A DNA stretch of 64,000 nt from an uncultured Spartobacteria bacterium (lineage in GTDB: Bacteria > Verrucomicrobiota > Verrucomicrobiia > Chthoniobacterales > Chthoniobacteraceae): positions 1 through 64,000 of the forward strand of contig CAIRYQ010000044.1 in NCBI GenBank assembly GCA_903882875.1, read 5' to 3'. Below, in pieces: positions 8,765 through 24,483 of the stretch (position 1 is its first letter; the number at the start of each line of letters is the position of its first letter). The translations under genes and the position numbers were made by a program. The notes under the pieces were generated by a model, which was not told where the DNA came from, made no database searches, and was given only the letters and a program-made list of their open reading frames with translations.

Positions 8765-8917
8765 CAACGATTTGCCCGCATCCGGTACACCTTCTAAGAA
8801 ACTCCGGGCACCATCCGTCTCATGAGCCGACGATGTCTCCTGACTCGCATTGCAACCCAGACCGACCGATGATTCGTGCATGATTCCGCCACAACCCCCG
8901 CAGTGGTCCCCGTGGCC

Positions 8918-9466
8918 ATGAAGACGCCGGAGGAAGCCAGCGCATCCCCGCAGGAATGGGCGACGATCGAGGAGGTCTTCGCCGCCCTGGAGTCGCCGCT
9001 GCTCGCGTATGCCCGCAGGCTGGTGGGCGATTTCGCGGTGGCGGAGGACGTCGTGCAGGACGCCTTTATGAAACTTCACTCGCAATTCCAGCAGGTCCGC
9101 ACGCCGCAGCCGTGGCTCTACCGCACGGTGCATAATCTCGCGGTGGATCATCAGCGCCGCGCGAGCCGGATCGTGCTCGTGGACGATCGTGCGCCGGACG
9201 ATGCGCCCGCGATGGACATCGCCGATTCGCAGCCGATGCCGGACGAACAGATCGCGCGCTGGGAGGGCATCGGCCTCGTGCGGCTGGTGCTGGAGACGCT
9301 GGATGCGCGCAGCCGCGAATTGATCCGGCTGCGGTTTGAGGAGGATCTTTCGTACAAGGAAGTCGCGGAACGCACGGGGCTCACGGTGGGGAATGTCGGC
9401 TATATTTTGCATCACGCGCTGAAGGCGATGGCGCTCGAACTCGAAAAGACGGAGGTGGCAAAATGA
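8918..9466 (+). CDS. ECF-type RNA polymerase sigma factor
   Basis: 182 residues from the ATG at 8918; a GTG at 8876 would add 14 residues. Region 2 is clear: LLAYARRLVGDFAVAEDVVQDAFMKLH with the usual A-E-D-(V/L)-V-Q-(D/E)-(A/V)-F core, then PWLYRTVHNLAVDHQRR (region 2.3-2.4). Region 4 follows a short acidic linker: ELIRLRFEEDLSYKEVAERTGLTVGNVGYILHHALKAM, the SigJ/ECF helix-turn-helix (only its order is noted here). It overlaps the next gene by the four bases ATGA (9463-9466). That downstream protein begins with an anti-sigma-like segment and a membrane helix, so the pair is probably a sigma/anti-sigma couple. Confidence 0.92.
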   Translation: MKTPEEASASPQEWATIEEVFAALESPLLAYARRLVGDFAVAEDVVQDAFMKLHSQFQQVRTPQPWLYRTVHNLAVDHQRRASRIVLVDDRAPDDAPAMDIADSQPMPDEQIARWEGIGLVRLVLETLDARSRELIRLRFEEDLSYKEVAERTGLTVGNVGYILHHALKAMALELEKTEVAK

Positions 9467-12400
9467 ACCCGCAATCACCACGCGAAGAACTCGAAATCCG
9501 CATCACCGCGCTGCTGATGGGTGAGCTGTCGCCCGACGAAGCCGCGGCGCTGCAAGTACAGATCGCTGCCGACGCGGAACTGACTGCGCTCCACACGCGG
9601 CTCCAGCGCGCGATGGGATTGCTGCGTGAGGCGAGCGCGATCCCGCAGCAGCCGGCGGCTCGGGAGCCCGCGCATCTTTCCGAAGACCGCGGGGCGCGGC
9701 TGCTCGCGCATTTCAAGGGTGCAAAGCCGGGGCCGGTGATCGTGAAGACGCGCCGCGATTGGAAATGGGCGGTGCCGCTCGGCCTCGCAGCGTCGCTGAT
9801 GGCGCTGATCGGCGGGGCGATGTATGTGAATGGCTTTGGGCTGAGGAAGGGGAGCACAGCGGCAAATGCGGCACTCTTTTTCGATACGGATCGGGACGGA
9901 TCTGCCAATCTCGGAACGTGGGGCGAACCGAATGGGAAATCTGGCGAAAAGCGAAATGGTTACGCGGCTACGGATCAGGAGGGCGGACGTGGCAAGTGGG
10001 GTTCGCTGCCAGAAACGATCCGAGGCGTTCCATCGCAGGACGGAGAACGCGGTTCGGGCGACGCGCACGCCTTTTACCGACAGTACGCATTTCAAGAAGG
10101 GACGGCGGAGCAGGCCGCGGAAACCGATCCGGCTTTTATTGCAGGTTCGGCGTGGGATACGCCTCGCGTCCAAACACACTTCGACCGCGGAGTGAGCGGA
10201 GGCGGGAGCGGCCCTGCTTTCAGGGGCGGCTTGGCCACCGCCCAGACGCAGGCGAATGCATACGGGCGGCAACTGTCCGACACGAGCACGCGGGCGGCGA
10301 GTGGAAACAACTTGGTCTATCTTCCTGCTGCTGCTGAAGCGCCTGGCGCCAGTTTGGCGAATGGAAAGCTTGCGGCTGGCGAAGAGAGGCATCCGGCGGT
10401 TGATCCTTCGGTTGCAGTCGCATCTTCATCGTCGCCCCTGCAGATCGAAGGTGCAGCAGTTCCGATGGCGCGAGAATTGGCGGACAGGGAGGAGCGGGCT
10501 GCGTCGAATCCGACCCGGCGTTTGGGCGTCGAGCGCGACGAGAAGGGTGCGTCGCGTCCCGTCGCGACGCCTGCTCCTTCGAGTGATCTCGCGTTGGGAA
10601 AGCGCGTGGAGGGCGAAGGCAAAGGCGGACGCAATGCTTTTACCGACGGCAGAACATCCGGCCCCGGCGATTTGCGCCCTGATGGAGCAATGCCTGCCGA
10701 CGGCACGCCCGCACTCGGCGTTGCAAGCACTCCGACGGGAGGCGTGGCGATTTCCGATGACCGGATGCGAGTTCAATTCGGAACCACGAAGCCGCCGGGA
10801 GTGAAGGTTGAAACTCCGCCACCCGATGCCGCGATCTTGGGCGATGTGTTGCTGGCTGGAACCAGCGCATCTCCGGCTCCGGATGCGAAGCCTGGTGCAC
10901 CGTCGTCCGATGCCTTCGAGCGCGGGGTGAAGGAGGAAGAGCGCGTCACGACAGAGAACGTGGACAAGGCGCGACATTTTGCGACGGCGACGAACAGGCT
11001 GCCGGAGCTGAATCTTTCCGATCGTCCGCGAGAGTCCGCTTTTCCCACACCTGCCAAGAAGAGCGAGGAGCGGATCGCAACACGCGAAAGCGGCACGGAA
11101 CTTAAGAAGCTCGCGGGCATCGAGACGGAGCGCAGCCGTCCTGCGGGCTCTTCTCAAGGGCATCCGGGGAAGCCCGCCACCACTTCGCTGGGTTTGGTGT
11201 CGGGCAGTTCGGCGGCCCGTCCGGATGATTTGCCGCCACGCAAGGCCGGGAGCGGCGGCGAGGCAGCGCATGGCGATTTTGACAAGGATCTGGGCGATTT
11301 CCCCGACGGCGCGTTTGCCGGCAAGGCTGATGAAGGACGAGCAGATCGGTGGAAGGAACAGACTGCGGCTGCGTCCGTGGAGGCATCGAAAAAGCGGGAC
11401 TCCTCCGAATCTGCGCTGGGCGTGATGAACGAGAAGCGCGGGCGCGCGGAAATCGCCGCCAGGGAGGTGGCCCCAACTGTTCCGGCAATCACGGCGCGCC
11501 CGCCGACGCCCGAGCCGCCGAAAGCGACGAAGCCCGAGATGGAACTGGATGAATTGAAACGCACCGAAGCCAATCCTGTTCCGACGACACCCGGCGGTCA
11601 GCGCGAGAGTTTTGCGCCGAACGGGGCGGGCGGGCGGCAAGATCAGCCGGCCCTCTTTACGGATCTCAATGCGTTTGCCGTTCTTCCGAAAGGTGGCACC
11701 GAGTTGGCAACGAATGGTGACGGCATTGCAGGCAGTGGAGCGGCGACGCTGAGCAAGACCGGTGGGGGCACTTGGCAGATGAGCGGTGCAAAAACTTACG
11801 CTGGCACGACGAGTGTGAGCGGAGGGAATCTTGTCCTGAATGGCGGGGGCACGCTGAATTTCGACACGGGAATCGGGAGTGTAACCAACGGAACATCGGT
11901 CCTGGGTGTGGATTCGCCGATTGCTGAACCAACGCCCGAAGCCACCATGCTTGCGCGCCGACTCGACAGCAATGGGCGCAATGGGAAGGACGATTCAAAA
12001 ACGAAGAATGAGGGATCTGAGAGGGAGGAATCCGATCAGCTCCGCGTCGAAACGGCGAAGCTGGCCGATCTGAAAGCGAAACTTTCCGGAGCAGCGATGA
12101 ACTTGGAGCAAACGCAGAAGGGCGCGGAGCGGGATAAGGATGTGGCTTTGCAGGCTGGAGAGCCGAAGGAACCTCGGGCTTCGGGGAAATTGAAGGAGAT
12201 GGAACAGGTGGAGAGTCTGGACAAGAAAATTGACGAAGCCCTCCTTGAGAAATCGAAAGTGATGGAGCTGAAAAAGGAAATTCAGGAGGCCAAAGAATCC
12301 GAGCCCGCTCCGCCGAAGCCCGCACCCTCTCCGCTCGTGCCGCAGCCGGAAGTCCGCACGGGCGAGAATGCGTTCTCCACGTTCTCGCTCAATGTCAGCG

Positions 12401-13674
12401 ATGTGGCGTTCAAGCTCGCGGCGGCGAGCCTGGAGCGCGGAGTGATGCCGGATGTCTCGACGCTGCGCACGGAGGAATTCATCAACGCATTCGACTACCG
12501 CGATCCGGAGCCCGCGCCGGGTGCGCCGCTGGCGTTTGCATCGGAGCGCGCGCGGTATCCTTTCGCGCAGAACCGCGATGTGATCCGATTTTCCGTGAAG
12601 ACCGCAGCCGTTGGCCGGCAGCAGGGAAAGCCGCTGAACGTCGTGTTGCTGCTCGACAATTCCGGCTCGATGGAACGTGCGGATCGTGTGCGCATCGTGC
12701 GCGAAGCGATGCGCTCGCTCTCGGCGCAGCTCACGCCGCTGGACAAGCTGAGCATCGTCACTTTCTCGCGAACGCCGCGGCTGTGGGCGGATGGCGTCGC
12801 GGGCGACAAGGCGGGCGAAGTGACTGCGCGCGTCGGCGAAATCACGCCGGAGGGCGGTACGAACCTCGGCGCTGCGCTCGACCTCGGCTACAAGACGGCG
12901 CTGCGGCATTACCAGCCCGGCAGCATCAATCACGTCGTGATGCTCACCGATGGTGCGGCAAATCTCGGCGACGTGGATCCCGCGGCGCTGAAGCAAAAGG
13001 TGGAGACGCACCGCAAGCAGGGCATCGCGCTCGATTGCTTCGGAGTCGGCTGGGAGGGGCTGAACGACGACATGCTCGAACAGCTCTCGCGCAACGGCGA
13101 CGGGCGCTACGGATTCATCAATTCGCCCGAGGAGGCTGCGACAAATTTTTCTGCGCAGCTCGCGGGCGCGCTGCACGTCGCGGCGGCTGATGTGAAGGTG
13201 CAGGTCGAGTGGAATCCGAAGCGCGTCACCGCGTATCGGCAGGTCGGCTACGCGAAGCACCAGCTCACGAAGGAGCAGTTCCGCGACAACACGGTGGACG
13301 CCGCCGAACTCGCCGCCGCGGAATCCGGCAACGCGCTCTACGTCGTCGAAGTGAATCCGCGCGGCGAAGGTGATCTCGGAATTGTGCGGGTGCGGTTCAA
13401 GGTGCCGGGCACTTCCGACTACCGCGAGCACGAGTGGGCCGTGCCATTCACGCGCGCCGCCGCGCCGCTCGAACAGTCCAGCTCATCACTCCGACTCGCC
13501 GCGACCGCCGCGGCGTTTTCCGAAATGCTCGCGGGAAGCCCCTTCGCCACGGAGGTGACGAGCGATCGTCTGCTGGGCCTGTTGAACGGCGTGCCTGCGA
13601 TCTGCGGCGCGGACCCGCGTCCGACGAAACTCGAATGGATGATCCGCCAGGCGAAGAGCCTCTCCGGCCGCTGA
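9463..13674 (+). CDS. Anti-sigma-like, membrane-anchored VWA (YfbK-type) protein with strand repeat
   Basis: 1403 residues. Residues 8-60 (ITALLMGELSPDEAAALQ...) resemble the helical N-terminus of ECF anti-sigma factors, without an obvious zinc motif. One membrane helix lies at about 102-125 (WAVPLGLAASLMALIGGAMY). A long Gly/Ala/Pro/charged low-complexity region runs to about 960; inside it, residues 750-802 form one autotransporter-associated strand repeat (ATLSKTGGGTWQMSGAKTYA, then SGGNLVLNGGGT), and 846-946 are Lys/Glu-rich coiled coil. The C-terminal 430 residues are the YfbK arrangement: N-terminal vWF_A segment (ENAFSTFSLNVSDVAFK), VWA domain with MIDAS DNSGSMER, and a DUF3520-like tail. 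It overlaps the sigma gene by 4 nt. Likely role: envelope stress sensing linked to the sigma factor; the linkage is inferred from position. Confidence 0.85.
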   Translation: MNPQSPREELEIRITALLMGELSPDEAAALQVQIAADAELTALHTRLQRAMGLLREASAIPQQPAAREPAHLSEDRGARLLAHFKGAKPGPVIVKTRRDWKWAVPLGLAASLMALIGGAMYVNGFGLRKGSTAANAALFFDTDRDGSANLGTWGEPNGKSGEKRNGYAATDQEGGRGKWGSLPETIRGVPSQDGERGSGDAHAFYRQYAFQEGTAEQAAETDPAFIAGSAWDTPRVQTHFDRGVSGGGSGPAFRGGLATAQTQANAYGRQLSDTSTRAASGNNLVYLPAAAEAPGASLANGKLAAGEERHPAVDPSVAVASSSSPLQIEGAAVPMARELADREERAASNPTRRLGVERDEKGASRPVATPAPSSDLALGKRVEGEGKGGRNAFTDGRTSGPGDLRPDGAMPADGTPALGVASTPTGGVAISDDRMRVQFGTTKPPGVKVETPPPDAAILGDVLLAGTSASPAPDAKPGAPSSDAFERGVKEEERVTTENVDKARHFATATNRLPELNLSDRPRESAFPTPAKKSEERIATRESGTELKKLAGIETERSRPAGSSQGHPGKPATTSLGLVSGSSAARPDDLPPRKAGSGGEAAHGDFDKDLGDFPDGAFAGKADEGRADRWKEQTAAASVEASKKRDSSESALGVMNEKRGRAEIAAREVAPTVPAITARPPTPEPPKATKPEMELDELKRTEANPVPTTPGGQRESFAPNGAGGRQDQPALFTDLNAFAVLPKGGTELATNGDGIAGSGAATLSKTGGGTWQMSGAKTYAGTTSVSGGNLVLNGGGTLNFDTGIGSVTNGTSVLGVDSPIAEPTPEATMLARRLDSNGRNGKDDSKTKNEGSEREESDQLRVETAKLADLKAKLSGAAMNLEQTQKGAERDKDVALQAGEPKEPRASGKLKEMEQVESLDKKIDEALLEKSKVMELKKEIQEAKESEPAPPKPAPSPLVPQPEVRTGENAFSTFSLNVSDVAFKLAAASLERGVMPDVSTLRTEEFINAFDYRDPEPAPGAPLAFASERARYPFAQNRDVIRFSVKTAAVGRQQGKPLNVVLLLDNSGSMERADRVRIVREAMRSLSAQLTPLDKLSIVTFSRTPRLWADGVAGDKAGEVTARVGEITPEGGTNLGAALDLGYKTALRHYQPGSINHVVMLTDGAANLGDVDPAALKQKVETHRKQGIALDCFGVGWEGLNDDMLEQLSRNGDGRYGFINSPEEAATNFSAQLAGALHVAAADVKVQVEWNPKRVTAYRQVGYAKHQLTKEQFRDNTVDAAELAAAESGNALYVVEVNPRGEGDLGIVRVRFKVPGTSDYREHEWAVPFTRAAAPLEQSSSSLRLAATAAAFSEMLAGSPFATEVTSDRLLGLLNGVPAICGADPRPTKLEWMIRQAKSLSGR

Positions 13675-13719
13675 ACTGCCCGCCATTTTTCTCCCCACGC
13701 ATCTCCCGAATATCTCATC

Positions 13720-16700
13720 ATGAAACTCCGCCTGCTTACACTCCTCCCGTTCATTTCCCTGCTCACGGCCATCGCGTCGTTCGCGCAGAACGAGGCTGAA
13801 ATCAAAAACCCGGCCATCACCGGAGGAGTCGCGGATGGCAAGGTGAAGCTGACGATCGAAGGCGATCTTACCGCGCGCGGCGACAGCAAGGACAAGGTGA
13901 TCTTTGCGACGTCCGTGGAGCATTCGATCAAGGTTTCGCGCGACAGACTCATGCACCGGCTCGCGGTGACGATTGATATTTTGCAGGGCAAGCCGAGGGA
14001 GCTGCCGCTGACAATTTCGGGCGACGGCGAGATCAAGCAGGTGGCTGGCGAAGGATTGCAGGACTGGAGCGTGCGCCGCGATGCGGACGGCGCGCGCACG
14101 CTCGTGCTGCGGCCTGAAAAAGGCGACGAGCCGCTGAAACAGCTCAAGGTCATCGTCACTGCCGAGCACGAGATGAAGGCCGGAAAAAATGTCGCTTCGA
14201 TTTTTTCGCTCACGCCGCCAGTGCCCGCGCTGTTCGGCGGATTTGTAAGCGTGGAATCCACGCCGGACATCGAGGTGCAGGCCGACACGCCGCACGGGCT
14301 GCTGCCCGTCGAGGCGAAGCACATGCCGCAGGCGATGCGCGGCAAGCCAAAGGCCGACGCACCCGAGTCGCTCGCGTTTCAGTTTCACGGCGCGGCGTAT
14401 TCGCTGCCGTTGAAAATCTCCATCGCCGATCCCGAGACGCGCCAGGTGGTGCTGCGCGAATTCAAACTCACGGGCCAGATCACGGAGCAGAACGCAGCAT
14501 TCACTCTCACCGCCACTGCGCGCGTGATGAATCCGAAAGGCGGCACGCTCACGCTGCTCGCCGGCGGCATCGCGCTCACGGAACTCGCGGAGCATCCCGA
14601 CTGGCGCATCACGTCGGCGGGCGGACGGTTCTCGCTCGCGTTCGACAAGCCGGGCGAATTTCCGATCGTGTTCAAGTTCAACGCGGCGGTGCGGCAGAAC
14701 GGCGGATGGAATTCCGTGGACTTTCATGTCGCGCCGAGTGCGCTGCAGCCGATCATCCTTCAAGGGCTCGCAGCAGACACGCAGTTCAATTTCGTCGGTG
14801 CCGCGCGCCCGGAAAAAACGGGCAAGGATTTCGCGAGCTTCCTGCCGCCGGATGGGGCCGTGAAACTTTCGTGGAAGACCGCAGCGCCGGAGGCGGAAGG
14901 GAAACTTTTCTACGCTGCGGAAATGCTTTCGCAGCTCAGCGTCGGGCCGGGGCTCATGCGGCAGGTCGCGCTGCTCGACTGCAAGGTGATGCAGGGCGAA
15001 CTTGATCGCGTGACGCTGCTGCTGCGCGGCGATGGTGAGGTGACTCGCGTGCAGGGCGAACAGGTGCTGTCGTGGGCTGTCGAGCCGGGTCCGAATGCGG
15101 CCGAGCGGAAGCTCGTCGTGAAATTCAACCAGCCGCAGAAAAATCTTTTCACGATTCTCGTTCAGACGCAGACGCCGATCGGCGCATTCCCGCAGACGGT
15201 GGACGCGATGCAACTGAGGCCCGAGGGCGCGACGCGCTTCGCAGGCTACATCCGCATCGTGAACGAGGGCGCGGTGCGGATCGAGGTCGCGCAGGCGAAG
15301 GGCCTCTCGCAGGTTTCGCCTGAGCAGTTTCCCGAGAGCGATGTGACGAAGAGCGTGTTCCGTGCGGGCGGCGGACAGCGTTTTGCCTACCGATTTTCCG
15401 GCGCGGATTTCGCGCTGCGCATCCAGGCCGATCAGATCCTGCCCGAGCTGACGGTCTCGCAGGTGTTCGCATTTCACCTCGGTGAGAATGAGCAGAGCAT
15501 TGATGCGGAGATCGAGATTGATGTCCGCGAGGCGCCGCTGCGCGAACTGCTGCTGCGCGTGCCGAAAGGGTATGCGGTCGCAAAGCTGAACGTCGCGGGA
15601 CTGGCGGATTATTTTCTCCGCGACGCGGATGATGATGCGGAATTGCGCCTCGTATTCGCGCAGCTGATCACGGGCCGGCAGGTCGTGCAAGTGCGCCTCG
15701 AACGCAACGCGGCGCTCGGTGCTGCGGACTGGGTGTTGCCGCATGTGGACGTGACGAAGGCGAAGTCCGTGCGCGGACACGTCGCGGTGTCGGCGGACGC
15801 CGGCATCCGGCTCACTGCCGGGCGCACGCAGGCGCTCACGGAAATCGCGACTGCATTTTTTCCGCGCAAGGTCGCGGGCATCCAGGCGGCGTTCCGCCTG
15901 AGCGAACCCGCATGGCAGGCGACGATGCGCGTCGAGCGGCTGCCGCAGTCCATCCAGGCGGATGCGTTCCATCTTTTTTCCATCGGCGAAGGCGTCGCGT
16001 ACGGCAGCAGCGTGATGAACTTCGTGATCTCTGGCGCTCCAGTCTCGGCGTTCAAAATCGAGTTGTCGGACGAATACTTTAACGTCGAGTTCACCGGGAA
16101 GGACATCCGCAACTGGCAGAAGGCGGAGGGCGGCTACGTGGTGCAACTGCACACGCCGGTGTCGGGCGCATACACGCTGCTCGCGACGTATGAGCGGCCC
16201 TTCAAACCGCAGGGCGACACGCTCGCATTCACCGGCGCGAGGCCTCTTGATGCGCAGTCGGAGCAGGGGCACACGCTCGTGATCAGCGCGTATCAATTTC
16301 AGGTGAAGCCGGTGGATGTCTCCGCCGGATTGCTGCCGCTGGAGACCGGCGAGGTGCCGCCGGAATACCGTCTCTTTTTCGACGCGCCGATCCTCGCCGC
16401 GTATCGCTACGCCGCGCGGCCGTTCAATCTGAAGCTCTCGCTCAGCCCGCTCGCGCAGGGCGATTCACTGAGCCAGGTCGTGGACCGCGCGTCACTCGTC
16501 ACGCACATCTCGAAGGCCGGGCAGGTGCTCACGGACGTGCGCTACTTTGTGAAAAATCGCGGCAAGGCGAATTTCCGGATCGCGATCGAGGAGGGCACGC
16601 AGCTCTGGTCCGCGACGGTGAACGACGCGCCAGTCGTGCCGGTGCAGGATGGCAGCGTGAACCTCATCCCGCTCCCGCAGCACGCGGATCCGAACATGGT

Positions 16701-19700
16701 GCTCAAGATTGATCTGAAGCTCGCCGGCCACTCGAAGGAACCGGAGCGCGTGAAGCTCGCGACGCCCGTGGTTGGCGCGCCCGTGATGCTGGCGGAATGG
16801 AAACTGATCCCGGACACCGCGCAGAAGCTCGTCTATCGCGAAGGCTCGCTCACGCCCGTCGGCGGCGTGGCGGATGCGTCGGGCTTCGCCGGCCTCGCGC
16901 GCATGTTCAGCGGTCACGATGCGGGCCGGGTCACGGTGCAGTTGCTTGCGGCGCTCGCATTGCTCGCGCTCGCCGCAGCCGTTTGGCGGAGCGCGGCGAA
17001 GGATGGCGTGTTCAAGTTCAGCGCGCGTCACTGGTCCGGGCTGGTGCTCGGCTGTGCGGCATTCGTCATGGCGGGGATTGCGTTCATCGGGCTTGCCGAG
17101 GTCGCGCGACAGCACACCTCGGAAATCCCGCGCGGGATCACATTTCTCGCGCCGGTGCAGCAGGCGGGCAATGCACTCGCGGTCGAGGTGGGCAATGTCG
17201 AGGACGGGACCTCGGCGCTGGATTGGATCGGATACTCGTGGCTTCCGGTCCTCGCGTTTCTCGCGTGGGCGTTCGCGCGGCTCTCGGGAAAACCAAAGTG
17301 GACGATCATCGGCTGGACGCTGCTCGCGTGGGCCGCGCTGCGCTGGCCGAACGGCGCGTGTGCGTTTCTGGCGATCGTCGCGGCGTTCTTCGTCTGGAAT
17401 CTCGCGCTGCCTGCATTGAGAAAGCTGTGGCGCGCGCCGAGAAAGCCGAAGGCGAGCCTGCCGAACGCAGGCGGCGGTGCTGCTGCTGCGACTGCATCAT
17501 TGCTGATCACCGGACTTCTCGCGTGGAGCAATGTCGCGTCTGCGCAGGCCCCGGATGCCGTGCCTTTGCCGCCGAAGGAAGCGCCGGTCGCGGAGAGCGT
17601 CACGCAGACGATCCGCGTCGAGGAAAAGTTCGCGCTCGTGACGGCGAAGATCCGCTGGCAGGCGGTGAAGGGGCAGCGGCTGCCGCTGCTGTTCGAGCCG
17701 GCGGTGCTCACGCAAACGAAATTTCCGGAAGCGTCGCTGAAACTCGTGCAGGCCGGGACGCCGCGCTCGCAGCAACTGCTCGCGCTTGAGACGGGCGCGT
17801 TCGACATCGAGCTTCAATACCAGGTGCCTGTCGTGAAGAAGGACGCTGAGAGCGGATTCGTGCTGCCCGCGCAATTCGGGCTCGTGAACCGCCTCTCGCT
17901 CACGCTCGCAAATCTCGATGTGGATGTCGTCTCGCCGCAGGCGGTCTCCATCGAGCGGAAGAGCGCGGGCAAGGACACGACCGCCGCGCTCGTCCTCGCA
18001 CCGGTGAATGAAATCTGGATCGCATGGAAGCCGCGCAGCCGGGATGTCGCTCGGGAAAAGGCCGTCTTCTACGCAGAGCTGACACAGCTCTACGCGCCGA
18101 CTGCGGGAGTCATCGAAGGGCTTCATCACGCCGCGATCCGTCCGGCGCAGGGCGAGCTTGCGGAACTCTCTTTCGATGTGCCGAAGGGTGCGACCATTAC
18201 TGATGTGATCGATCCGGCGACGCTGGTTGCGGCGAAGGACAAGGTGCCGCCGTCCGTGGTCTCGCAGTGGCGTTTCGACCCCGACACGGGAAAGCTGCGC
18301 GTGAATCTCGCGCCGCCGCAGTCGCGTCCATTTTCACTGATCATCCGCTCGCAGATCGCGACGGGACCGCTGCCCGTCGAGCAGAAGGTCGGATTGATTT
18401 CCGTCGAGAATGCGGCGGGACAAGTCGGGCTGCTCGGCATTGCGACGGGCAATGAAGTGCAACTCGACACGGTGGACGCAGCGGCGCTCACACCGATCAA
18501 TCTCGAAGATTTTCCGGGCAACATCGCGGCGTTTCTCCAGGGCCAGATCCCTGGACTCACCACGCGCCGCGCATTTCGCTACGCGGATGTGAAGGCGAGC
18601 GCGGTGCTGAAGGCTTCCGCAGTCGAGCCGGATGTGCGCGTCGAATCACAGGACACACTTTCACTCGGTGAAGACCGCGCGGTGCTCGCGGTGAATGCTA
18701 TGGTGGACATCACGCGCGCCGGGATTTTCCGGCTTAGTTTCGCGCTGCCTGCGGGGATGGATGTGGAGTCCATCACGGGGAAGGCGCTGAGCCATTGGAC
18801 GGAATCGAAAGCCAATGAGGAGCGGATCATCACGCTGCATCTGCTCGGTCGCACCGAGGGGCGGCAGGAGTTTGCAATCTCGCTCACGGGCGCGGGAATG
18901 AAGGCGGCAAAGGCATGGGCGGCCCCGAAGCTGATTTTCCGCGAGGCGGGCAAGCAGCGGGGGACTTTTCTCGTGGTGCCGGAGCAGGGGATGCGGTTGC
19001 AGGTCACGACGCGCGAAGGCGTCACGCAACTCGACCCGCAGAAGTCGGGCATCAAGCAAAAGGGCGTGCTGGCGTTCCGTGTCTTGCAGACGCCGTGGAA
19101 TCTCGCGCTCGATGTCGAGCAGGTGGACCCGTGGGTGCAGGTAACGAGCCTGCAGCACGCGACGGTCGGCGAGGCGCAGGTGAAGGTCGCGGCAAACCTG
19201 CAATACCAGATCGAGAACACGGGGCTGAAAATTTTTCACGTCGCTCTGCCTGTGGAGGCGGAGAACGTGCGCTTCACGGGCGATCAGGTCGCGGACTTTC
19301 TCGCGGTGCCGAAGGCGGTGAATGACGGATTGCAGACGTGGGAGGTGAAGCTCCACCGCCGCGTGATCGGGCAGTATCTATTGCAGGCGGCTTACCAGAC
19401 GCCCGTGCCCGCGCTGGCGACGGACGTCGCGCTGCGCGGCGTGCAGGTCGCGGATGTGAATTTGCAGCGCGGCTTTGTCACCGTGCGTTCCGCGGGCCGT
19501 CTCCAGCTTCGCGTAGAGACTGCACCTGCCGCGCTTCAGCCGACCGAATGGCAGGGCATCCCGCGCACGCTTCAGCAGGACATCGCCGCATCGTCTGCGA
19601 GCTTCGCATACCGGCTCGTCGAGCCTGCGTTTTCGCTCCCGATGAAACTCGAACGGCACGAGGCGACGAAGCTCCTGCCTGCGCGGGTGAACAACATCAC

Positions 19701-20754
19701 ATTCACCTCGGTGATCGCCGACAGCGGCGCGATGCTCACGCAGGTGCGGCTCGAAATCCTGCCGGGCGACAAGCGGCTGCTGCACCTCACGCTGCCGAAG
19801 GACGCGCGGTTCTGGTTTGCGTTCGTCAACCAGAAGGGCGTGTGGCCGTGGCGCGAGAAGGATGAGATTTTGATCCCGCTCGAACAGCAGTCGCGCGGCG
19901 CTCAGGCGGTGCCGGTGGAACTATTTTACAGCAGCCAGATTGGTGAACCGGGATCCCGGTCGCTCGATCTGCAGTTGCTTGCGGCGAAATTTGATCTGCC
20001 GTTGGAGAACATCATCTGGCGCATTTTCCTGAATGAAAAATGGAAGATCACGAAATGGACCGGCTCGCTGCAGCTCCAGCAGGATGAGATCGTCGCCCGT
20101 TCGACCGCCGTGGATTTGCAGAGCTATTTGCAAAACGAGGCGAGCCAGCAGCGCGACAAGACGGCGGCTGCTGAACAGATGCTTGCGCTCGGCAACAGCG
20201 CGTTGCAGCAGGGCAATCCGCAGGAGGCGCGGCGTGCATTCGAGTCTGCGTACGGACTGAGCCAGCACGACAACGCCTTCAACGAGGACGCGCGTGTGCA
20301 GCTTCACAATGTGAAGCTCCAGCAGGCGCTCATTGGCTTGAACGTGCGCCAGTCGAACGTCGCGGGCGAAGGCGACGCGCTCACCGGAAAGCTGCGTGCG
20401 GGCAGAGGTGGTAAGGAGGCTAACTACACGCAGCAGGACGCGAAACAGATCCTCGACCGCAACACGGCTGATGAGAATGCGGCGTTCACCAAACTTGCGG
20501 AGCGGCTTATCCAGCAGCAGGACGCCGCGGTGAGCAGCCCGGCGGTGATTCAGGCGAGCATTCCCGAGCAGGGCCGGATGCTCACATTCAGCCGCGCCGT
20601 TGCGGTGGACAACTGGGCCGATTTGCAGATCGGCCTGAAGGCAAAATCCGCGGTTCCGGCACCGTGGCTGGTGCGTCTCGCAATTCTCGCGGCGACGGTG
20701 CTCGTGCTCGGGATCTTCCTGCGGAGCGCGACGGCTTTCCGCCGGACGCTGTGA
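13720..20754 (+). CDS. Giant membrane protein (2344 aa), unknown function, apparently two-fold
   Basis: Signal peptide (MKLRLLTLLPFISLLTAIASFA), about 1050 residues of beta-rich periplasmic sequence, then a cluster of six hydrophobic segments between residues about 1070 and 1277; the last looks like a second signal peptide (LLITGLLAWSNVASAQA). A second beta-rich half follows (about 1280-2130), then a helical, Gln-rich TPR-like region (AEQMLALGNSALQQGNPQEA, about 2147-2200) and a final membrane helix at about 2315-2337. Each half ends in a similar pattern of a V-P-V/E-K-D-E-I-L-I-P-L strand, a long hydrophobic strand, and a W-containing strand, so an old duplication or gene fusion is likely. 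I recognise no family. It lies 45 nt after the VWA gene and probably belongs to the same operon. Confidence 0.7.
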   Translation: MKLRLLTLLPFISLLTAIASFAQNEAEIKNPAITGGVADGKVKLTIEGDLTARGDSKDKVIFATSVEHSIKVSRDRLMHRLAVTIDILQGKPRELPLTISGDGEIKQVAGEGLQDWSVRRDADGARTLVLRPEKGDEPLKQLKVIVTAEHEMKAGKNVASIFSLTPPVPALFGGFVSVESTPDIEVQADTPHGLLPVEAKHMPQAMRGKPKADAPESLAFQFHGAAYSLPLKISIADPETRQVVLREFKLTGQITEQNAAFTLTATARVMNPKGGTLTLLAGGIALTELAEHPDWRITSAGGRFSLAFDKPGEFPIVFKFNAAVRQNGGWNSVDFHVAPSALQPIILQGLAADTQFNFVGAARPEKTGKDFASFLPPDGAVKLSWKTAAPEAEGKLFYAAEMLSQLSVGPGLMRQVALLDCKVMQGELDRVTLLLRGDGEVTRVQGEQVLSWAVEPGPNAAERKLVVKFNQPQKNLFTILVQTQTPIGAFPQTVDAMQLRPEGATRFAGYIRIVNEGAVRIEVAQAKGLSQVSPEQFPESDVTKSVFRAGGGQRFAYRFSGADFALRIQADQILPELTVSQVFAFHLGENEQSIDAEIEIDVREAPLRELLLRVPKGYAVAKLNVAGLADYFLRDADDDAELRLVFAQLITGRQVVQVRLERNAALGAADWVLPHVDVTKAKSVRGHVAVSADAGIRLTAGRTQALTEIATAFFPRKVAGIQAAFRLSEPAWQATMRVERLPQSIQADAFHLFSIGEGVAYGSSVMNFVISGAPVSAFKIELSDEYFNVEFTGKDIRNWQKAEGGYVVQLHTPVSGAYTLLATYERPFKPQGDTLAFTGARPLDAQSEQGHTLVISAYQFQVKPVDVSAGLLPLETGEVPPEYRLFFDAPILAAYRYAARPFNLKLSLSPLAQGDSLSQVVDRASLVTHISKAGQVLTDVRYFVKNRGKANFRIAIEEGTQLWSATVNDAPVVPVQDGSVNLIPLPQHADPNMVLKIDLKLAGHSKEPERVKLATPVVGAPVMLAEWKLIPDTAQKLVYREGSLTPVGGVADASGFAGLARMFSGHDAGRVTVQLLAALALLALAAAVWRSAAKDGVFKFSARHWSGLVLGCAAFVMAGIAFIGLAEVARQHTSEIPRGITFLAPVQQAGNALAVEVGNVEDGTSALDWIGYSWLPVLAFLAWAFARLSGKPKWTIIGWTLLAWAALRWPNGACAFLAIVAAFFVWNLALPALRKLWRAPRKPKASLPNAGGGAAAATASLLITGLLAWSNVASAQAPDAVPLPPKEAPVAESVTQTIRVEEKFALVTAKIRWQAVKGQRLPLLFEPAVLTQTKFPEASLKLVQAGTPRSQQLLALETGAFDIELQYQVPVVKKDAESGFVLPAQFGLVNRLSLTLANLDVDVVSPQAVSIERKSAGKDTTAALVLAPVNEIWIAWKPRSRDVAREKAVFYAELTQLYAPTAGVIEGLHHAAIRPAQGELAELSFDVPKGATITDVIDPATLVAAKDKVPPSVVSQWRFDPDTGKLRVNLAPPQSRPFSLIIRSQIATGPLPVEQKVGLISVENAAGQVGLLGIATGNEVQLDTVDAAALTPINLEDFPGNIAAFLQGQIPGLTTRRAFRYADVKASAVLKASAVEPDVRVESQDTLSLGEDRAVLAVNAMVDITRAGIFRLSFALPAGMDVESITGKALSHWTESKANEERIITLHLLGRTEGRQEFAISLTGAGMKAAKAWAAPKLIFREAGKQRGTFLVVPEQGMRLQVTTREGVTQLDPQKSGIKQKGVLAFRVLQTPWNLALDVEQVDPWVQVTSLQHATVGEAQVKVAANLQYQIENTGLKIFHVALPVEAENVRFTGDQVADFLAVPKAVNDGLQTWEVKLHRRVIGQYLLQAAYQTPVPALATDVALRGVQVADVNLQRGFVTVRSAGRLQLRVETAPAALQPTEWQGIPRTLQQDIAASSASFAYRLVEPAFSLPMKLERHEATKLLPARVNNITFTSVIADSGAMLTQVRLEILPGDKRLLHLTLPKDARFWFAFVNQKGVWPWREKDEILIPLEQQSRGAQAVPVELFYSSQIGEPGSRSLDLQLLAAKFDLPLENIIWRIFLNEKWKITKWTGSLQLQQDEIVARSTAVDLQSYLQNEASQQRDKTAAAEQMLALGNSALQQGNPQEARRAFESAYGLSQHDNAFNEDARVQLHNVKLQQALIGLNVRQSNVAGEGDALTGKLRAGRGGKEANYTQQDAKQILDRNTADENAAFTKLAERLIQQQDAAVSSPAVIQASIPEQGRMLTFSRAVAVDNWADLQIGLKAKSAVPAPWLVRLAILAATVLVLGIFLRSATAFRRTL

Positions 20755-20811: not shown

Positions 20812-23800
20812 TCATTTTGTCGCGAGGAGATTTTTCAGAGCGTTCGCGAGTTCGGCTTGGGTGAACGGCTTGTCCAGGCGGCCTGTCGCTCCCAGCGCCG
20901 TGAACTTTTCAGCCTCATCATCTTCCATCCGACCGCTCGCCACGATGATGGGGATGTCCGGCAGCAGCAACCGGACTTCGCGGACGAATGCCAGGCCGTC
21001 CATGCGCGGCATGTGGAGGTCTGTGATGATGGCGCGGATCTCGGTCCGGTGTTGCGACGCCTGCCTGAGACCGTCCGCGCCGTCGGTGGCGATCAGCGGA
21101 TTGAAATCCAGATGCGTCAGCACCGCACGGGCCACGTTCCGCACCCTGGCTTCGTCGTCCACGAAGAGGATGGTTTCTCCGTGGCCGCGGAAAACTTTCG
21201 GCATGCTCGATGCGGGCTCCGGTTCGCCGCCCACCGGATCCACCGGCAGATAGACGGTGAATGCCGTGCCATGTCCCGGTTCCGAGGAGACCTGTGTGAA
21301 TCCGCCGTGGCCTTTCACGATTCCCATCACGGTGGAGAGGCCGAGGCCGGTGCCTTTTTCCGGGCCCTTGGTCGTGAAGAACGGATCAAAAATCCGGTCG
21401 AGAATTTCCGGCGGAATCCCCGTGCCGGTGTCGCCGACGAGGATCGCCACGTAGTCGCCCGGTGTCGCATCGGGCATTGCCCTGGCGTGCTCCGCGTCCA
21501 TTTCCACGCGCATGGCTTCGAGCGTGAGCATGCCGCCGCGGGGCATGGCGTCGCGCGCATTCACGCAGAGGTTCAGGAGCACCTGGTGCAGTTGCGTGGC
21601 ATCGCCCAGCACCGTCGGAAGATTCGGGGCGCACTTGATCGCCAGCTCGATGTTCTTCGGGAAACTGCCCTTCATCAGATTCTCCATCTCCCTGATCAGG
21701 CGGCCGGGCTGGAGCGCGGCTCGCGCGCCCTCCGCTCCTTTGGCAAAGGCCAACAGTTGCCGCACCATGTCCGCCGCGCGTTTGGCGCTGGCCTCGATCC
21801 GGTCCAGCATTTGCGACTCCCCCGGATACTCCATCCGCAGCAGCTCGCCGCTCATCATGATCGGAGCGATGGCGTTGTTCAGGTCGTGGGCGATCCCGCC
21901 CGCGAGTGTGCCGATGCTCTCCATCCGCTGTGAGCGCAGGGCCAGGCGCTCCTGCCGCTGGCGCTCGGTGATGTCGCGCAGCGTGGCAAAGTTGAACTCC
22001 TTCCCGTTGATGAAGACGTAGTTGGCATTCACCTCGACGGAAAAGATGCGGCCATCCTTTGCCCGGTGCCGAGTTTCAAAGGTGACGGTGCCGCGGTGCT
22101 TGAGATCCTCGAAGTGCGGTTCCCACACGTCCGGCTGGAAGTCCGGATCCAGATCGAAAATCTTCATGCGGAGCAGTTCGTCGCGGGTGTAGCCACGCCC
22201 CGCGCACATGGCGTCGTTTGCGTACAGGATGCTCCCGTCACGGTTGATCCAGGCCACGCTGTCGCCTGCGCGATCCACGCTGAACCGCATCATCCGCAGC
22301 GTCTCCTCGGTCTCTTTGCGCGACGTGATGTCCTGCCAGGTGCCCAGGATTCCGATTACATTTCCCGCCGCGTCAAAGAGCGGCACCTTGTTTGTCTCCA
22401 GCCAGCGCGTGCTGCTGTCAATCATCGTCGCCCGTTCAATGATGCCCAGTTGCGGCTGGCCCGAGGTCATGACCTCGCGATCTTTCCGCACAAAAAATTC
22501 CCCCTGCTCGCGGCTCAGCGCAGGGAAGTCGAAATCCGTCAGGCCCACGATGGCCGCTGTGTCGCTGAGCCCGAAATTTCTGGCGACGACCGCATTGCAG
22601 CCGAGGTAGCGCGATTCGCGATCTTTCCAAAAGACGCCCTGCGGGATGTTGTCCAGGACCAGTTGCAGCATCCGCTGCGAATTTTGCACGGACTCCTGGG
22701 CCGCCTTCCTTTCGGTGATGTCGTGCCATGTGCCCAGCACGCCGATCACATTTCCATCCGTATCGTGCAGGGGAACCTTGTTCGTCTCCAGCCAGCGCAG
22801 GGAACCGTCGGCGCGTGTCGTCTGCTCGATGATGCCGAGCTGTGGCCGGCCCGTGGCAATGACCTCGCGGTCCTTCCGGATGAATGCCTCCGCCTGCTCC
22901 GGGGTCAGCGAGGCAAAGTCACGGTCGCATTTTCCCTTGAGCAATTCCGCATTCTCGATCCCGCGATGCCGTGCGATGATCGCATTGCAGCCAAGGTAGC
23001 GCGATTCGCGATCCTTCCAAAAGACGCCTTGCGGGATGTTGTCCAGGACCAGTTGCAGCATCCGCTGCGAAGTCTGCATGGCCTGTTCGGCCTGCTTGCG
23101 TTTGGTGATGTCTCGTCCGATGCCGACGAGCCCGATGATTTTTCCGGCGGAGTCCTTGAGCGGCACCTTGGTCGTCAGGATGAAGCGCTGCAAGCCGTCC
23201 GGGTGGGGCACCGACTCCTCCTTGTTGAACAGGGAGCTTCCGCCGAGCACGAGCTGTTCATCGCGCAGGAACGTGGCGGAATCCTCGGGCGGATAGATGT
23301 CCCCATCACATTTCCCGATCAGCTCCTCCGGCCCGGCCACGCCCATCACCTGCGCCACGCTGCGATTTGCCAGCAGGAACCGGCTTTGCGTGTCCTTCAT
23401 GTAGATGTGATCCGGCAGCAGATCGATCAGCGTTCGGAGCAGGGTGCGCTCTCGATCGAAAGCCTCCGCGTTCCGCTTCCGCTCGGTGTTGTCTCGGGTG
23501 ATGCCCAGCAGTGCGGTCACGCAGCCCCGCTCGTCGCGCATCGGCACGGCGCGCATTTCGAGCCAGAGGTGGGCGCCCTTGAGTCCGCAAATCTCGAATT
23601 CGAGCGCGCCGCTTTCTCCCCGCAGAACGCGTTCCGTCAGATCGGTGAACGCGGAGCGGAACTCCGGGAGAACCAAATCGAGCATACAATGCCCGGCGAC
23701 CTGTTCGAGGGAGTCCGCCCCGAACATGCGAAGTCCCGCGGGGTTCATGGACAGGAGCGTGCAACCGGGGCCGAGCAGATGCACGCACTCCGGTTCGGTT

Positions 23801-24252
23801 TCAAAGATCGCGCGCAGCCTCCGTTCGCTTGCGGCGAGCTGCTGCTCCGCGCGGAGACGCCGCCGGTGCTCCTCAGCCGCCGCCAGTGCGCGCTGCACCG
23901 CCGATGGGAGGCGGTCGAGGCGATCATTGAGCAGGTAATCAACGGCTCCCGCGTGCAGGCACCGCACCGCCGCCTCCTCGCCGATGGTGCCGGTCACGAT
24001 GATAAACGGCACATCGCGACCGCTGTTCTTGAGCAGCGCGAGAGCATCCAGTCCGCTGAACCTTGGCATCGTGTAGTCGCTGATCACGATGTCCCACGTC
24101 TGATTGGTCAGCGCCGCAGCCATCGCCTCCGGTGTGTCCACACGCTGGTGTTCGGGCAAGAATCCGCCGTCTTGTAACACGTTGAGAATGAGCAAGGCGT
24201 CGGCTTCTGCATCTTCCACCAATAAGATTCGCAACGGCTGGCTCATCGGCAT
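20812..24252 (-). CDS. Hybrid sensor kinase: REC, five PAS domains, HisKA/HATPase, REC
   Basis: 1146 residues from the ATG at 24252 (another ATG lies two codons on; upstream in-frame sequence is not protein-like). Order: receiver domain (RILLVEDAEAD, phospho-Asp in VISDYTMPRFSG), five PAS/PAC units each closed by a (R/H/Q)DIT-R-(K/Q) motif, dimerisation helix with the phospho-His in GTLAGGIAHDLNNAIAP, ATPase with N-box LLNLCVNARDAMPRGG, G1 GDTGTGIPPE, F-box FDPFFTTKG and G2 GTGLGLSTVMGIVKGHGG, and a C-terminal receiver with ITDLHMPRMDG. No membrane segment is visible, so it is cytoplasmic. PAS3 and PAS4 share the long identical run VLDNIPQGVFWKDRESRYLG and lie exactly 130 codons apart, a recent duplication. 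The input signal and partner are not evident from the neighbours. Confidence 0.92.
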   Translation of the reverse strand: MPMSQPLRILLVEDAEADALLILNVLQDGGFLPEHQRVDTPEAMAAALTNQTWDIVISDYTMPRFSGLDALALLKNSGRDVPFIIVTGTIGEEAAVRCLHAGAVDYLLNDRLDRLPSAVQRALAAAEEHRRRLRAEQQLAASERRLRAIFETEPECVHLLGPGCTLLSMNPAGLRMFGADSLEQVAGHCMLDLVLPEFRSAFTDLTERVLRGESGALEFEICGLKGAHLWLEMRAVPMRDERGCVTALLGITRDNTERKRNAEAFDRERTLLRTLIDLLPDHIYMKDTQSRFLLANRSVAQVMGVAGPEELIGKCDGDIYPPEDSATFLRDEQLVLGGSSLFNKEESVPHPDGLQRFILTTKVPLKDSAGKIIGLVGIGRDITKRKQAEQAMQTSQRMLQLVLDNIPQGVFWKDRESRYLGCNAIIARHRGIENAELLKGKCDRDFASLTPEQAEAFIRKDREVIATGRPQLGIIEQTTRADGSLRWLETNKVPLHDTDGNVIGVLGTWHDITERKAAQESVQNSQRMLQLVLDNIPQGVFWKDRESRYLGCNAVVARNFGLSDTAAIVGLTDFDFPALSREQGEFFVRKDREVMTSGQPQLGIIERATMIDSSTRWLETNKVPLFDAAGNVIGILGTWQDITSRKETEETLRMMRFSVDRAGDSVAWINRDGSILYANDAMCAGRGYTRDELLRMKIFDLDPDFQPDVWEPHFEDLKHRGTVTFETRHRAKDGRIFSVEVNANYVFINGKEFNFATLRDITERQRQERLALRSQRMESIGTLAGGIAHDLNNAIAPIMMSGELLRMEYPGESQMLDRIEASAKRAADMVRQLLAFAKGAEGARAALQPGRLIREMENLMKGSFPKNIELAIKCAPNLPTVLGDATQLHQVLLNLCVNARDAMPRGGMLTLEAMRVEMDAEHARAMPDATPGDYVAILVGDTGTGIPPEILDRIFDPFFTTKGPEKGTGLGLSTVMGIVKGHGGFTQVSSEPGHGTAFTVYLPVDPVGGEPEPASSMPKVFRGHGETILFVDDEARVRNVARAVLTHLDFNPLIATDGADGLRQASQHRTEIRAIITDLHMPRMDGLAFVREVRLLLPDIPIIVASGRMEDDEAEKFTALGATGRLDKPFTQAELANALKNLLATK

Positions 24253-24483
24253 TTCATGTCTTTGGGTGGTGGGTGGATTGCCGGACAGTGGCGTTTGGGC
24301 GTCAGCATTTTCACTGCGAACGGGGGAACACGCGTTGCCGGAATGAAGATATGATGACCGATGGAAAGTTTGGCGCAATGCCCGCTTCCTTTTCGTGGAT
24401 GCCGCAGGATTCCAGTGCAACGTCGGCTGGACGTGATCCCCATTTTTCCAGCTCGGCCCCGCCGCTTTTCCGAAAGCAGCCTC

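Follow-up and report, generated by a model that had tools for sequence, protein, structure and literature searches.

Which genes does an ECF sigma factor control when its gene is followed by one for a membrane protein that begins like an anti-sigma factor, and then by one for a giant membrane protein, and what might such a membrane protein sense? ECF sigma factors usually govern sets of genes, and the inputs of their anti-sigma factors are often hard to learn. The three genes lie in the window, meaning the whole analyzed stretch of 64,000 nucleotides from an uncultured Spartobacteria bacterium. An ECF sigma gene comes first, followed by a gene encoding an anti-sigma domain, a transmembrane (TM) helix and a YfbK-type VWA module in one protein, and finally by the giant membrane protein gene. 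The stop codon of the sigma gene overlaps the start codon of the VWA gene as ATGA (9463-9466), and 45 nt separate the VWA gene from the giant gene. Both details, and the length of 2344 residues for the giant, had been described in the first-pass annotation and were confirmed by the ORF coordinates. The features of the block, all on the + strand, are as follows.

8793 to 8822, + strand: promoter-like element of the ECF type with putative -35 and -10 parts, conserved 5' of the sigma gene in relatives
8918 to 9466, + strand: ECF sigma factor (Pfam Sigma70_r2 and r4, TIGR02937; found at 75 loci)
9463 to 13674, + strand: anti-sigma/VWA fusion gene, 1403 aa (ORF; member of the giant-linked clade, SH-aLRT 100)
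9463 to 9717, + strand: predicted anti-sigma domain, residues 1-85 of the VWA protein, zinc ligands lost (zf-HC2 in relatives, profile matches)
9772 to 9828, + strand: single predicted TM helix, residues 104-122 of the VWA protein (hydropathy; TM in relatives)
9835 to 12327, + strand: predicted periplasmic linker of about 830 residues, low-complexity, G+A 26%, no Cys (composition)
12352 to 13581, + strand: YfbK-type module with vWF_A N-domain, VWA domain with intact MIDAS, and YfbK_C (Pfam)
13720 to 20754, + strand: giant membrane protein gene, 2344 aa (ORF; in Pfam a weak TPR match only)
14440 to 16899, + strand: giant ectodomain A, residues about 241-1060, beta-sandwich array (hhalign to B; AF2)
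16918 to 17544, + strand: giant central cluster of about six TM helices, residues 1067-1275 (hydropathy; AF2 helices)
17581 to 20049, + strand: giant ectodomain B, residues about 1288-2110, duplicate of A (hhalign; AF2; VIA-align)
20116 to 20529, + strand: TPR-like helical insertion in the last beta sandwich of the giant, residues about 2133-2270 (profile; AF2 helices)
20665 to 20733, + strand: C-terminal TM helix of the giant (family-averaged hydropathy; AF2)

The sigma ORF ends at 9466 and may start either at a GTG at 8876 (196 aa) or at the ATG at 8918 (182 aa). Pfam sigma-70 region 2 was matched at residues 37-98 (5e-13) and region 4 at residues 135-185 (8e-13), and TIGR02937 was matched at 3e-26. 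The protein contains regions 2 and 4 only and lacks region 3, which places it among the ECF sigma factors. Downstream of the block, the next gene is located on the opposite strand (20812-24420, - strand), and the start of its product resembles a response-regulator receiver domain (RILLVEDAEADALLILNVLQDGG).

The first-pass annotation had proposed a search for the three-gene block in other Verrucomicrobia. Profile searches of the genes upstream of the giant revealed sigma, VWA and giant genes in the same order and on the same strand at 75 loci across Verrucomicrobiota, a count in which a few genomes were entered twice, e.g. L036 and L171. The 4-nt overlap of the sigma and VWA genes was present in 35 of the 75 loci. 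Such conservation of order and overlap argues against a chance arrangement, and the three genes are probably co-transcribed. A missing neighbourhood in relatives had been named in the first-pass annotation as grounds for refutation, and this does not apply. The giant itself was detected in 48 of 240 genomes of Verrucomicrobiota, the weakest matches being distant split relatives, and a scan of about 85,000 species located it at 142 places. For the best 80 of these 142 places the named hosts were all Verrucomicrobiota. No giant was found on the plasmids searched. The family includes cultured organisms such as Chthoniobacter flavus. Where a giant gene was found outside the block, the locus was either cut by a contig end or was one of L053, L066, L067 and L060. 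L053 and L066 belong to one genus with small genomes, and L060, which has no adjacent pair, has its sigma-VWA pair on another contig (L092).

Two unusual arrangements were observed. At L046 (8670-13025, - strand), two tandem VWA genes, one canonical and one of the giant-linked type, are situated between the sigma and giant genes. In the genome of the window itself, contig C35 carries three tandem giant proteins of 1181, 1390 and 1501 aa (L034, 7369-18652). Matches to P0003 (E about 1e-15) were obtained for the first two. All three open with related V-P motifs, the third contains PATR repeats, and no sigma match was found nearby.

The second protein was said in the first-pass annotation to begin like an anti-sigma factor, and the comparison of its relatives bore this out. 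The N-terminus of the window protein alone had no Pfam match. Zf-HC2 was matched by 23 of 30 aligned relatives, and a mixed family profile searched against the PDB matched RsiW (3.7e-8), ChrR (1.4e-5), 3hug_B (4.6e-5) and DdvA (7e-5). A profile composed of the zinc-less members only gave no anti-sigma match among solved structures, only weak, unrelated-looking ones. The H-x3-C-x2-C zinc ligands are absent from the window protein and its class, and are present in many relatives from other classes. Owing to this loss, the window domain is to be regarded as a zinc-less derivative and not as a strict member of the ZAS family. The anti-sigma homology holds family-wide, the zinc-less members being tied in by sequence through their zinc-bearing relatives, as the two profiles align with each other at an hhalign E of 9e-17.

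The missing zinc ligands and the lack of a direct match between the window protein and anti-sigma models would also be expected if the N-terminal domain of the zinc-less clade no longer binds sigma, the neighbourhood being a historical remnant and the promoter-like element being read by another factor. This we consider very improbable, since the zinc-less domain is still conserved, with LTALLLGEL and LS..RR motifs, and still aligns to the zinc domain as stated above, and the sigma and VWA genes remain overlapped in many loci. In two genomes (G169 and G181), a single ORF encodes an ECF-sigma-like part, a TM segment and a VWA module, which fits a functional pairing. These fused ORFs are located at L090 (3171-5912, - strand, 913 aa) and L091 (3734-6367, - strand, 877 aa), and their N-termini match the sigma profile at E of about 4e-7.

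The VWA protein was expected to cross the membrane once and to carry a YfbK-type VWA module, and both expectations agreed with the hydropathy and Pfam results. One hydrophobic segment was found, at residues 104-122. A TM segment was likewise predicted for 79 of the 88 giant-linked relatives; among the rest, several are truncated by contig ends. The YfbK module covers residues 964-1373 (Pfam). E values were 6.6e-12 for the vWF_A/YfbK N-domain, 1.5e-15 for VWA and 1.9e-28 for YfbK_C, and the corresponding scores of 45.7, 58.3 and 100.3 bits exceed the gathering cut-offs of 25, 23.8 and 25. All 88 giant-linked proteins have the DxSxS and D residues of the MIDAS, 81 of them also the T, and the domain may bind a ligand. 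Regarding its location, the module had been placed on the outside as a surface sensor. A position beyond the inner membrane is indeed predicted, but surface exposure found no support, and the predicted compartment is the periplasm. One PATR-like repeat of the autotransporter type was noticed in the linker (11749-11838; Pfam PATR 7e-6, TIGR02601 1e-6). It was rejected as a functional part of the linker because the window member alone shows it.

In a tree of VWA proteins, 86 giant-linked proteins formed one clade (SH-aLRT 100), the exception being the extra upstream VWA gene of L046. All 33 genomes with a divergent YfbK (70-165 bits) also have the giant, whereas genomes with a canonical YfbK (170-260 bits) may lack it. 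Four contigs titled Akkermansia muciniphila (L111, L140, L143 and L162) were yet placed with other families in this tree, and their titles look wrong.

Apart from the weak TPR match, whose score is below the Pfam cut-off, no Pfam or TIGR family was matched by the giant. Residues 235-1070 and 1285-2310 were aligned by hhalign in one profile alignment of 809 columns (E 2.8e-92), and shifted alignments of the two halves indicated smaller internal repeats. AF2 models of halves A and B had pLDDT values of 85 and 83; half A is mostly beta, and both halves form long beta-sandwich arrays. As the pTM was 0.42, the domain folds are usable and their arrangement is not. Comparison with VIA-align gave Z-scores of 14-16 with ribophorin I, with an rmsd of about 20 or more over multi-domain spans, and of 12-13 with the saddle domain of M1 aminopeptidases, with an rmsd of 3-4 over about 150 residues. 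The giant is thus an internal duplication of an array of about 820 aa, made up of beta sandwiches like those of the M1 saddle and ribophorin I. The structural match concerns the non-catalytic saddle domain, and no Pfam match to the M1 peptidase domain (HEXXH) was obtained in the giant at E 0.1. A TPR-like helical block is inserted into the final sandwich of half B, and the giant profile matches designed TPR proteins over about 35 residues. At the apparently equivalent place in half A, the AF2 model has a TM hairpin instead. Mid-protein membrane helices had been reported in the first-pass annotation, and about six were indeed located at residues 1067-1275 from family-averaged hydropathy and AF2; that description was incomplete, as a seventh TM segment is present at the C-terminus. 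The helix count and the positively charged loops suggest that both rods, as well as the VWA domain, are periplasmic.

The conserved linkage of two adjacent genes for membrane-anchored products could also reflect a structural or assembly complex of the two proteins, of the type proposed for Bat-like membrane VWA proteins, in which the sigma/anti-sigma pair would set the expression level only and respond to nothing specific to the giant. The TPR-like insertion and the beta-sandwich architecture recall the division of labour in Bat operons. Against such a complex, no YfbK protein was detected in four giant-bearing genomes (G175, G149, G124 and G106; loci L053, L066, L067 and L065), so the work of the giant seems not to need the VWA protein. 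ECF-VWA pairs without a giant exist as well. A purely structural role is therefore regarded as unlikely.

What the sigma factor transcribes was approached through the region upstream of its gene. A recurrent element, TCTAAG(A/G)AA-N~13-GTGTC(A/T)TA, was found 5' of the sigma genes. In the window it reads TCTAAGAAA-N14-CGTCTCA, its spacer being one base longer than in most relatives. A relaxed form was present in 45 of 73 sigma-upstream regions, compared with 0.6 expected from Markov controls and none on the reverse strand, and both controls rule out a chance origin. About ten further loci, including Chthoniobacter flavus (L182), showed the element after over-long ORF starts had been corrected. 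Most sigma-upstream regions of the zinc-bearing lineages gave no match to the element. A GGAGCA upstream of CGTCTAAG, seen in several relatives, was considered as an alternative -35/-10 pair and set aside, because the window and other members lack it but share the TCTAAG/GTC pair. Given the conserved -35/-10-like element, the sigma gene may be autoregulated from an ECF-type promoter.

With the strict pattern, 25 sites were found in 25 whole genomes, 23 of them located 34-140 nt 5' of this sigma gene, and the reversed-pattern control gave 6 sites in the same 25 genomes. The genome of the window has two exact matches; the second (C104) was set aside, as it overlaps a gene end. These counts bear on whether the sigma factor could be a general envelope-stress ECF factor with a broad regulon, the giant being one of many targets. 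Degenerate sites can escape a strict pattern. When two mismatches were allowed, however, 124 sites were found versus 205 in the reversed-pattern control, and no hidden broad regulon is indicated at that sensitivity; the exact element occurs about once per genome. One perfect extra element, which a broad regulon would readily accommodate, was observed at L210 (G241:C139), 34 nt 5' of an ORF for a small secreted protein, which makes this ORF a candidate second sigma target in that genome.

Genomes in which the module is split provide a natural test of which gene controls which. G114 has its sigma-VWA pair on one contig and its giant gene on another, with CTTGGAAAACCGCTCGCACCAAGCGTCTT 5' of sigma and CTTGGAAAACCGCGTTCCCCAGGCGTCTT 5' of the giant. 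The best-matching 30-base segments share 24 identical positions; of 395 segments drawn at random from these two loci, 1 reached this level, and it may overlap the site itself. The paired-site pattern occurred at these two places only in 6.2 Mb, with 0 in the control. G086 agrees with G114 more weakly. It has a shorter pair, TGTAA-N17-GCGTCTCGG, likewise at two sites only, but an unbiased comparison without gaps did not single out this pair, because the upstream region contains repeats. As the two patterns were written down only once the paired sites were known, finding both members is by construction and carries limited weight; the independent part is the absence of further sites. Together with the counts given above, the presence of only two sites in each of the split genomes speaks against a broad regulon, which appears unlikely.

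The explanation that we consider reasonably probable is that the sigma factor serves its own operon and the giant exclusively and is kept in check by a membrane anti-sigma factor whose input comes through a periplasmic MIDAS VWA domain. In its favour are the parts identified and their conservation, the homology to anti-sigma factors, and a promoter-like element that is conserved 5' of sigma and nearly absent from the rest of the genome. The N-terminal domain of the VWA protein would bind the sigma factor and so retain it at the membrane. The VWA protein would span the inner membrane once, its long and flexible linker positioning the MIDAS VWA domain in the periplasm. There, the VWA domain would sense a change, most likely in how far the giant, or its envelope ligand, is occupied or assembled. 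The signal would cause the anti-sigma domain to release sigma, and the free sigma would transcribe from its own promoter, yielding more sigma, more of the VWA brake and more of the giant. The output would be the giant, which would sit in the inner membrane and project two homologous beta-sandwich rods into the periplasm. The idea that the VWA domain responds to the state of the giant is attractive, if conjectural, and is weakened by the genomes that have a giant and no VWA protein. A still tighter version, a phylum-wide closed loop in which sigma serves only its own operon and the giant, and the VWA domain reads the state of the giant directly for homeostasis of a new envelope machine, is a tentative proposal that we hold to be rather doubtful. 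The first-pass annotation had not mentioned the duplication within the giant, the promoter-like element or the signs that sigma targets only its own operon and the giant gene. Here, comparison defines the sigma factor together with its brake and sensing domain, as well as the promoter and what is probably the only output, and the analysis points to an uncharacterized family of giant envelope proteins that is widespread in Verrucomicrobiota.

The fusion of an anti-sigma factor to a VWA domain was thought to be unusual. This did not hold, since many genomes of Verrucomicrobiota, as well as alphaproteobacterial plasmids, carry ECF-VWA pairs without a giant. In Ruegeria and Rhizobium, for example, the sigma gene overlaps a gene for a TM-anchored YfbK-type VWA protein and no giant is present. 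The giant-less pairs of Verrucomicrobiota and Alphaproteobacteria share with the window a sigma gene that overlaps or abuts the gene for a TM-anchored YfbK-type VWA protein; those of Verrucomicrobiota differ in their canonical YfbK sequence and in having no giant gene. YfbK of E. coli and many other bacteria has the same three-domain C-terminal module with an intact MIDAS, from which the giant-linked type differs as a separate divergent clade with lower scores (70-165 versus 170-260 bits). To our knowledge, E. coli YfbK has neither an adjacent sigma factor nor a giant.

Similar to the ZAS anti-sigma factors RsiW, ChrR and RslA (3hug), the window protein has an N-terminal anti-sigma domain encoded directly 3' of an ECF sigma gene. 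The zinc motif of the ZAS factors is shared by many relatives of the window protein, and the membrane anchor is as in RsiW. In contrast to these factors, the window clade lacks the zinc ligands and has a periplasmic linker of about 830 aa and a VWA domain. A protease-cleavage module was not identified in the window VWA protein. RsgI-type anti-sigma factors of clostridia resemble the window module in joining an anti-sigma factor to an extracytoplasmic ligand-binding domain. They differ in the anti-sigma fold and the class of sigma factor, and their ectodomains are carbohydrate-binding domains instead of VWA domains.

In the Bat system (aerotolerance), a membrane VWA protein is the partner of a large beta-sandwich membrane protein, and TPR elements occur. 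We know of no Bat operon with a sigma factor. When the proteins of the block were scanned, BatD had no Pfam match at E 0.1, and BatA_Lepto scored 28.8 bits against a cut-off of 380. The M1 saddle and ribophorin I beta domains resemble the sandwiches of the giant in fold only, with no sequence similarity, and the giant differs from these proteins in its tandem arrays and in that no catalytic domain was found. A full-text literature search, of incomplete coverage, returned no description of the giant family or of the ECF/YfbK anti-sigma fusion. The sigma/anti-sigma and YfbK parts are of known kinds, and what appears to be new is the giant together with its apparently private regulation.
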